From the NCBI RefSeq assembly GCF_030908245.1, contig NZ_JAVFJJ010000003.1, positions 186,001 through 250,000 on the forward strand: a stretch of DNA of 64,000 nt. The letters are read 5' to 3'. Below the pieces are notes generated by a model that made no database searches, was not told where the DNA came from, and saw nothing but the letters and a program-made list of their open reading frames with translations. Shown here in pieces: positions 23,942 through 29,094 of the stretch. Numbering within the stretch: the stretch's first letter is position 1; each line of letters begins with the position of its first letter. The translations under genes were made by a program, and so were the position numbers. This stretch comes from Sinomonas sp. ASV322 (lineage in GTDB: Bacteria > Actinomycetota > Actinomycetes > Actinomycetales > Micrococcaceae).

Positions 23942-27844
<3,903 letters not shown>

Positions 27845-27850
27845 CGGTCC

Positions 27851-27939
27851 CGCCGTCGTCGTCCTCTCCTGAGACGGACGACGACGGCGCTCGCCCACTC
27901 CGCGCGGCCGGTACCCCCTCGGGGGTGCCGGCCGCGCGG
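27851..27939 (+). terminator. Tandem hairpins after rpoC
   Basis: First: CGCCGTCGTCGTCC (27851-27864) with GGACGACGACGGCG (27876-27889), 14 pairs. Second: 27900-27918 with 27921-27939, about 19 pairs around CTCG, arms rich in CCGCGCGGCCGG. Neither is followed by a T-tract. Together they should block rpoC read-through. Confidence 0.7.
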
Positions 27940-27941
27940 CC

Positions 27942-28069
27942 GTGTGGGGGTCACCTTCGGGGGGTGGTGGGGCGTTTGGGGGTCACCTTCGGTGGGTGGT
28001 GGGGCGTTTGGGGGTCACCTTCGGTGGGTGGTGGGGCGTTTGGGGGTCACCTTCGGTGGGTGCCGAGCA
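27942..28069 (+). repeat. Array 1: four copies of a G-rich 32-bp direct repeat
   Basis: Copies start at 27942, 27974, 28006 and 28038 with exact 32-base phasing. Each contains GGGGGTCACCTTCGG followed by a G-rich tail (GTGGGTGGTGGGGC); copy 1 differs at three bases and copy 4 decays after GGTGGGT. The core GGGGTCACC is the reverse complement of the core of array 2. G-tracts of 3-5 per unit make quadruplex formation on the + strand possible. No gene spans it convincingly. Confidence 0.93.
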
Positions 28070-28071
28070 AT

Positions 28072-28115
28072 GGGCGACGACGCCTGCCGCCCGGGCGAGC
28101 TGCGCCGTCGTCCCC
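28072..28115. repeat. Inverted repeat between the two arrays
   Basis: GACGACG (28076-28082) pairs with CGTCGTC (28106-28112), extended by GGG/CCC around a bulged C. It contains one copy of the CGCCGTCGTC arm (28103-28112) seen in many terminators of this window and sits exactly between array 1 and array 2. Confidence 0.55.
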
Positions 28116-28128
28116 TGAGGCGGCGGCC

Positions 28129-28448
28129 ACCCGCGGGTGGTGACCCTTGAACGGCCGCGCACCCGCGGGAGGTGACCCCTGGGCGGGCGCGGACCCGCGG
28201 GAGGTGACCCTTGAACGGGCGCGGACCCGCGGGTGGTGACCCTTGAACGGGCGCGGACCCGCGGGTGGTGACCCCTGGGCGGGCGCGGACCCGCGGGTGG
28301 TGACCCCTGGGCGGGCGCGGACCCGCGGGTGGTGACCCCTGGGCGGGCGCGGACCCGCGGGAGGTGACCCCTGGGCGGGCGCGGACCCGCGGGTGGTGAC
28401 CCTTGAACGGGCGCGGACCCGCGGGTGGTGACCCTTGGATGGGCGGGG
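28129..28448 (+). repeat. Array 2: ten copies of a 32-bp direct repeat
   Basis: Ten contiguous units of exactly 32 bases start at 28129, 28161, 28193, 28225, 28257, 28289, 28321, 28353, 28385 and 28417. Each begins ACCCGCGGG(T/A)GGTGACCC and ends in GGGCGCGG. Two sub-variants alternate at unit positions 19-23: TTGAA (units 1, 3, 4, 9) and CTGGG (units 2, 5-8); unit 10 is a hybrid ending. Position 10 is A in units 2, 3 and 8. Each unit holds the dyads ACCCGCGGGT and GGTGACC. Thirty-two is not a multiple of three, so long open frames through it are by-products, not genes. Confidence 0.96.
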
Positions 28449-28471
28449 GTGGGGCCCGTTTAGGGGGAGTC

Positions 28472-28632
28472 CTGACCCGCGTGCTACCATTTCTACGATT
28501 GTTTCTGTGTGGCAGAGGATGATGGCCGCTCGCGCGAGAGCGCGGATGGAGCCTGTTTCCGGGTTGCGGGTTTGATGCGCGACAAATGCCACACTTTCGC
28601 ACGCCTACGGTCGAACACCGCAGCGAAGTGTG
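28472..28632 (+). promoter_or_regulatory. Candidate rpsL promoter and leader stem-loop
   Basis: -35 like CTGACC (28472-28477) and -10 TACGAT (28494-28499), 16-base spacer, give a leader of about 215 bases. Within it CACACTTTCGC (28590-28600) pairs with GCGAAGTGTG (28623-28632) with one bulge. This may be a regulatory or processing structure for rpsL-rpsG. The rest of the leader shows nothing. Confidence 0.42.
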
Positions 28633-28719
28633 AATCGACCGTCAATGCTCGTCGCGGCACGCCCGGCCTTTGGGTGAGCCTGCCCGGGCGAAGTTCAACG
28701 AAGTACGGAGAACACGAAA

Positions 28720-29094
28720 GTGCCTACTATTCAGCAGCTGGTCCGCAAGGGCCGCACGCCGAAGGTCTCCAAGACCAAGGCTCCTGCCCTCAAGGGCAGC
28801 CCCATGCGCCGCGGCGTGTGCACCCGCGTGTACACGACCACGCCGAAGAAGCCGAACTCGGCCCTCCGCAAGGTGGCCCGTGTCCGCCTCAACGGCGGCG
28901 TCGAGGTCACCGCGTACATCCCGGGTGTCGGCCACAACCTGCAGGAGCACTCGATCGTGCTCGTCCGCGGCGGCCGCGTGAAGGACCTCCCCGGTGTCCG
29001 CTACAAGATTGTCCGCGGTGCACTCGACACGCAGGGCGTCAAGAACCGTCAGCAGGCCCGCAGCCGCTACGGCGCGAAGAAGGAGAAGAAGTAA
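28720..29094 (+). CDS. rpsL: 30S ribosomal protein S12
   Basis: 124 aa from GTG 28720 ([15 protein letters not shown]). Conserved [19 protein letters not shown] and [28 protein letters not shown]. Lys43 and Lys88, the residues whose substitution gives streptomycin resistance in other bacteria, are both wild type. Sits in the decoding centre. Its TAA overlaps the rpsG ATG (TAATG). First gene of the str cluster, after the repeat-filled gap. Confidence 0.98.

Follow-up and report, generated by a model that had tools for sequence, protein, structure and literature searches.

The two facing repeat arrays between rpoC and rpsL of Sinomonas sp. ASV322 are one copy of a dispersed element that sits at the 3' ends of genes in Sinomonas. 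With a probability of about 0.52, the element is best explained as a family of REP-like 3'-end hairpins whose arms have been amplified into arrays and which would act as bidirectional terminators. The window is the whole stretch of 64,000 nucleotides that was analysed, from a draft assembly of 4.34 Mb in 33 contigs, and the parts of the locus within it are as follows.

23942 to 27844, plus strand: rpoC, the upstream gene, an ORF named from its product sequence (start at 23969 in our own gene caller).
27900 to 27939, plus strand: G+C-rich hairpin 3' of rpoC and apart from the arrays, with 19-nt arms that are 95% complementary.
27941 to 28062, plus strand: F array, four units of 32 bp, with GGTCACC cores at 27949, 27981, 28013 and 28045.
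28072 to 28113, no strand: imperfect inverted repeat in the stretch between the arrays, from an inverted-repeat search.
28129 to 28445, minus strand: R array, ten units of 32 bp, the F-array element on the minus strand.
28480 to 28719, plus strand: rpsL leader with the stretch ..CGATTGTTTCTGTGTGGCA..CCTGTTTCCGGGTTGCGGG.., seen in 15 of 15 Sinomonas.
28720 to 29094, plus strand: rpsL, the downstream gene, from ORF and gene caller.

A sequence-only reading of this DNA had described four and ten facing units at an exact 32-bp period in the rpoC-rpsL gap, and the positions of the exact cores agree with Tandem Repeats Finder on this point. The R array has ten exact GGTGACC cores stepping by 32 from a first start at 28139 to a last start at 28427. 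Tandem Repeats Finder returned period 32 for both the F array (27941-28062, 3.8 copies, 97% matches, score 230) and the R array (28129-28445, 9.9 copies, 92% matches, score 494), the two highest scores in the window. The two arrays also share a core in opposite orientation as described, GGTCACC in the first and GGTGACC in the second, and unit 1 of the F array deviates from units 2-4 in its first bases and in one base of the body. The dyad ACCCGCGGGT, ascribed to every unit of the R array, was found in seven of the ten, units 2, 3 and 8 ending in A and not in T. The spacer carries the inverted repeat that had been noted in it, but its length is 66 bases (28063-28128) and not 60; a similar inverted repeat was seen by eye at the equivalent place in S. 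humi (G006). The hairpin at 27900-27939 is probably the rpoC terminator, and hairpins like it were seen by eye in most congeners. The rpsL leader starts just downstream of the array end, and its conserved stretch is possibly a regulatory leader of the str operon; the leader had no Rfam match at gathering score, and at that score the whole window gave only one match, a tRNA. Three contigs (C14, C4 and C10; stretches L037, L048 and L050) start inside or beside GGTCACC arrays, and arrays probably break the assembly. Since the assembly is a draft and three of its contigs start at arrays, the true unit numbers could differ.

The 507-bp rpoC-rpsL query had 77 matches in its own genome. Clusters with two same-orientation units 31-33 bp apart numbered 40 in the 644 kb that were read of the 4.34 Mb, mostly stretches picked for matching the element, and the initial impression that the arrays were unique and had a special role in the rpoBC-str region is thereby left without support. 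Under a loose rule of at least two units, 46 clusters were counted in 34 stretches (the window and 33 selected by match), and 36 of them had both orientations. The order of units was strictly F then R in 30 of these 36; we read the R-before-F calls in the remaining six as loose one-mismatch hits. GGTCACC pairs at a 32-bp step occurred 42+69 times in the own genome, where the reversed-pattern control gave 0+0, and 14+9 times in S. humi; each of the other 13 Sinomonas had 0 or 1.

Each unit consists of a conserved core of about 25 bp and a 7-bp linker that varies among arrays. In 82 arrays, represented by one unit each, the conserved span runs from -8 to +16 with the consensus CGTYCAGG GGTCACC TCCCGYG GGT, and positions +18 to +22 are almost free (0.20-0.34 bits). 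At +3, in the core and at +14 part of this conservation is built in, because the selection rule admitted only units with C at +3, with a core that was exact or nearly so, and with two or three of the GGT letters at +14. Among 109 pairs chosen by two exact cores alone, which as tandem copies are non-independent, all had both GGT at +14 and G at +11, and 107 had C at +9. Between units in the same orientation there were 123 distances of 70 bp or less, and 109 of these were 32 bp. The 82 arrays carry a partial CGTC tag at positions -8 to -5 (C 71, G 62, T 72, T 46 or C 35), and GTAG is absent from their unit consensus. The stretch TCACCTCC may resemble the 16S rRNA tail. The linkers comprise 39 distinct modal sequences in 43 arrays of at least three units, and the linker sequence mostly repeats inside an array; a CRISPR array was rejected on these grounds, the linkers being 7 bp and mostly repeated and not unique spacers. 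A G-quadruplex, raised earlier for the F array, is no family trait, the pattern being met on the GGTCACC strand in only 16 of 62 arrays. Covariation within the unit was rejected as a sign of base pairing, its strong column links looking like subfamily linkage, and replichore polarity was dropped, as the gene count was rough and depended on an origin whose position had been guessed from this very motif.

The placement of the arrays relative to genes was assessed with a gene caller of our own that uses codon usage, and 36 array clusters had a called gene on either side. Of these, 23 lay in convergent, 13 in co-directional and none in divergent gaps; the 205 gaps without an array (minimum length 60 bp, from 21 stretches) divided into 35, 124 and 46, respectively. 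Fisher p was 2.7e-8 for the convergent excess and 3.6e-4 for the absence of divergent gaps. In 30 of the 36 clusters a same-sense stop codon lay 5-30 nt from a sense-oriented unit. The exceptions are the window cluster, which is 104 nt from the stop codon and behind the rpoC hairpin; L053 2655, also at 104 nt; L054, with F units and both neighbours on the minus strand; L062, with distances of 45 and 39 nt; L065, with R units between plus genes; and L068, which overlaps with a called gene end. No array was found inside a called gene (0/32 and 0/36). An ordinary minisatellite had been expected to show the same units in many unrelated loci with no fixed phasing. The many loci were found, but spacing and gene orientation are fixed, and a minisatellite without fixed gene orientation was rejected given the sense unit near the stop codon and the 0 of 36 in divergent gaps.

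All 7-mers found within 60 non-coding nt downstream of a stop codon were also ranked, and GTCACCT was first in G000, second in G013 and first in G004 (samples of 464, 400 and 400 kb, respectively). In this zone the ratio of sense to antisense GGTCACC was 17:2, 11:2 and 16:12 in the same three genomes. In the ranking, tandem copies enter more than once. Genes with a hit within 60 nt after the stop numbered 15/404, 12/353 and 14/346, some of the hits being chance words. The samples from G013 and G004 (L254-L273 and L274-L293) also show an enrichment of GTTTCGG / TCGGGTA behind stop codons; this second group of words is perhaps another 3'-end repeat.

Other periods were found in relatives. A core step of 14 bp accounts for 9 spacings in G013 and 12 in G004, and a less frequent step of 21 bp for 3 and 5, respectively. 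The 32-bp and 14-bp forms would be homologous, because the 32-bp unit retains the GGT that opens the next 14-bp copy. The rpoC-rpsL gap was read in all 15 Sinomonas. The own genome has four F and ten R units at step 32; S. humi has two F units at 32, about one R unit and the similar central hairpin; G004 has facing arrays of about three units per side at step 21; and G008 has an F array at step 21 (one step of 20). Facing arrays at step 21 (one of 23) also occupy the gap in G011 (L242), built on the unrelated core CGAGATGGGG / CCCATCTCG. A single R-like unit was found in G013 and one GTCACGTC hairpin each in G009 and G010, and no recognisable array was seen by eye in this gap in seven of the 15 (G001, G002, G003, G005, G007, G012 and G014). 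Likewise, the orthologs of two array-bearing genes had no GGTCACC array in 14 and 13 congeners within at most the first 330 nt, and some of them carry unrelated hairpins instead. As it is missing at two orthologous gene ends and in 7 of 15 rpoC gaps, the element is dispensable. Two side observations come from the same reading. Two copies of a different repeat, GCTGGTTGAGCGGAGTCGAAACC, differing in one base, lie 3' of a glmM-like gene in G002 (L328), where the own genome has GGTCACC arrays. A leader-like stretch similar to CTCACATCGTGAGACCTTCTGAAGGTCTCACA lies between a ferredoxin-reductase-like gene and the next gene in L335, L336, L337 and L339 (G005, G008, G011 and G013).

Outside the genus, Arthrobacter alkaliphilus and A. 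bambusae have their own 32-bp arrays with GGTCACCT, which are look-alikes of the element; because the query that found them itself specified a step of 32 bp, their period does not count as independent support. Their sense unit faces a same-sense gene end in 25 of 31 clusters from 21 stretches, and within 100 nt in 18, a cluster whose neighbour was cut off by the end of the stretch being scored as a miss. The 32-bp-step scan covered at least 100 stretches, the placement coming from the 21 of Arthrobacter; 7 were from S. humi and 72 were others, including a number of 8- or 16-bp repeats. When GGTCACC pairs were counted irrespective of spacing, the counts were far above the control in many Sinomonas (G004 74+109 vs 1+2; G011 75+87 vs 0+1) and low elsewhere in Micrococcaceae. 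The low counts outside Sinomonas are probably in part coding Val-Thr, and any-spacing counts therefore fail to separate the element there.

Regions with both F and R arrays fold better than shuffles (mean z -6.35; z < -2 in 30 of 34 loci), which results directly from the inverted arrangement; for F arrays by themselves the effect is modest (mean z -2.05; z < -2 in 20 of 43 stretches). Complementarity of F and R arms was 0.654 within the same locus and 0.672 between different loci (p = 0.98), and that of junction units was 0.644 in both comparisons. As F and R arms do not coevolve, selection on pairing itself is unsupported. Strict stems of at least 12 were found in 29 of 66 element-free convergent gaps and 4 of 127 divergent ones, three species pooled, and in 7 of 19 element-holding gaps (G000 2/7, G013 2/5, G004 3/7); the low rate in the latter would be due to imperfect arms or long loops. 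A further hairpin of at least 12 lies outside the units at 9 of 36 array loci, the window included.

A single gene end, marked in G004 by a GTCACC hairpin, was compared across ten clear Sinomonas orthologs with 79-100% identity, the own genome being without a clear ortholog of that gene. A hairpin-forming stretch lies just downstream in 10 of 10, and at least four unrelated sequences are used: a GTCACC type in G004 and G012 with a variant in G002, a separate one in G003, one common to G005, G008 and G013, and another common to G006, G009 and G010. By a strict rule (at most one mismatch, loop at most 15) the stem was at least 12 in six of the ten (G002, G003, G004, G005, G008 and G013), the maximum in 30 shuffles per ortholog being 13. 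A loose rule applied without control (at most three mismatches, loop at most 40) gave stems of 12 to 32 in all ten. The next gene was called convergent at seven of the ten sites. The comparison suggests that at this site the predicted hairpin, and not its sequence, is what is kept.

Taken with the folding, the place and the orientation, these unrelated hairpins make a bidirectional 3'-end hairpin the likeliest function of the element. It would be an inverted repeat, with one or more F arms presenting GGTCACC in sense after the stop codon, followed by one or more reversed R arms. In G013 and G004 an arm would comprise one to several 14-bp steps around GTCACCT, and in the own genome and S. humi an arm of about 25 bp with its 7-bp linker, repeated at 32 bp; the arrays would thus have grown from hairpin arms. 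In RNA made from either side, pairing between F and R arms could give one long, G+C-rich hairpin. This hairpin would terminate or obstruct transcription and protect the 3' end, amounting to a two-way terminator or insulator. The rpoC-rpsL arrays may then form a second barrier behind the rpoC hairpin and ahead of the rpsL leader. Of the roles first proposed, an insulator or an RNA structure separating transcription units agrees with the link of the arrays to the 3' ends of genes and with their inverted repeats. The terminator reading explains least well that F and R arms do not coevolve, that the spacing is strict and that the steps are 21 and 32 bp, and these three observations keep a protein-binding array alive.

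A DNA-binding protein might recognise the core of about 25 bp, and its cooperative binding to evenly spaced tandem sites might obstruct RNA polymerase (or replication) in one direction at the ends of genes; we regard this as possible but rather doubtful. It would account for the absence of arm coevolution, for the near invariance of GGT at +14, G at +11 and C at +9 in the exact-core pairs and for a linker that is free in sequence and fixed in length. In the rpoC gap, a step of 21 is common to the arrays of G004, G008 and G011, the last with its unrelated core, and 21 and 32 bp are about two and three helical turns. The helical phasing proposed at the outset would be compatible with these arrays, near whole turns, but not with the 14-bp arrays of G013 (9 spacings) and G004 (12), which do not keep one DNA face; the unrelated hairpins at the orthologous site also speak against a protein, suggesting that the hairpin is kept and not the sequence. 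That facing arrays of fixed spacing bind a Sinomonas/Arthrobacter protein at the 25-bp core and serve as polar barriers to RNA polymerase (or forks), much as convergent insulator sites do, we consider quite improbable. On this reading the free 7-bp linker would keep phase only; sister species have facing 21-bp arrays, one of them with an unrelated core, in the rpoC-rpsL gap. It is unlikely that the arrays are a minisatellite or selfish repeat of largely neutral effect, spread by local duplication and gene conversion and tolerated nowhere but at the 3' ends of genes. Homogenisation inside arrays (identity 0.828) with divergence between loci (0.670) is what such a repeat would give, as are copy number and presence that vary among species at one gap and the absence of arrays at two orthologous gene ends, but tolerance alone fails to predict either the sense unit near the stop codon (30/36) or the F-before-R order (30 of 36 two-orientation clusters).

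Among known systems, REPs are described as dispersed extragenic units of 20-40 bp in inverted pairs, by convergent or co-directional 3' ends (PMC3733652, PMC2817692), conv-REPs lying mostly less than 20 bp from both 3' ends and uni-REPs near the upstream 3' end (PMC3733652). The Sinomonas element is similarly dispersed, extragenic and at 3' ends, with 0 of 36 in divergent gaps. This shared placement (PMC3733652) favours a putative REP/BIME-like nucleoid or gyrase site that would relieve supercoils between convergent units, or a protector of mRNA 3' ends, but both are very improbable: F-then-R blocks in 30 of the 36 two-orientation clusters replace the alternating units of BIMEs, and the own genome has no match to the Y1 (RAYT) transposase PF01797, which matched in 5 of 14 control genomes. 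Mobilisation by RAYT was rejected on the latter result; CGTC repeats are also without a reported transposase in PMC3733652, the main text of which does not contain the word actinobacteria. The element further differs from REP/BIME in that units of one orientation follow each other at an exact period, with linkers peculiar to each array, and in a single unit that folds only modestly and would not be a clear palindrome. Many units begin with CGTC or CGTT, but no 8-9 bp stem was seen beside the tag.

Intrinsic bidirectional terminators share with the element the G+C-rich inverted repeats after stop codons and the use of unrelated hairpins at an orthologous site. They differ from it in that no terminator-like site with a U-tract was found within 27700-28800, in that the Sinomonas arms are built of repeats, and in that one sequence family recurs across many loci. 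Transcript ending in high-G+C actinobacteria, often without U-tracts, is poorly settled. The MIRU/VNTR of mycobacteria are actinobacterial intergenic tandem repeats oriented with the upstream gene, but their units are longer and reach the stop codon as well as the start codon, whereas the Sinomonas element consists of facing 32-bp arrays. No description of the element was found in the open-licence literature of PubMed Central.

The family thus offers natural elements in which hairpins with array-grown arms seem to do the 3'-end job, while sister species bear shorter or unrelated hairpins at the corresponding gene end. The rpoC-rpsL gap is a highly conserved chromosomal neighbourhood, and within it these repeats turn over between species of one genus.
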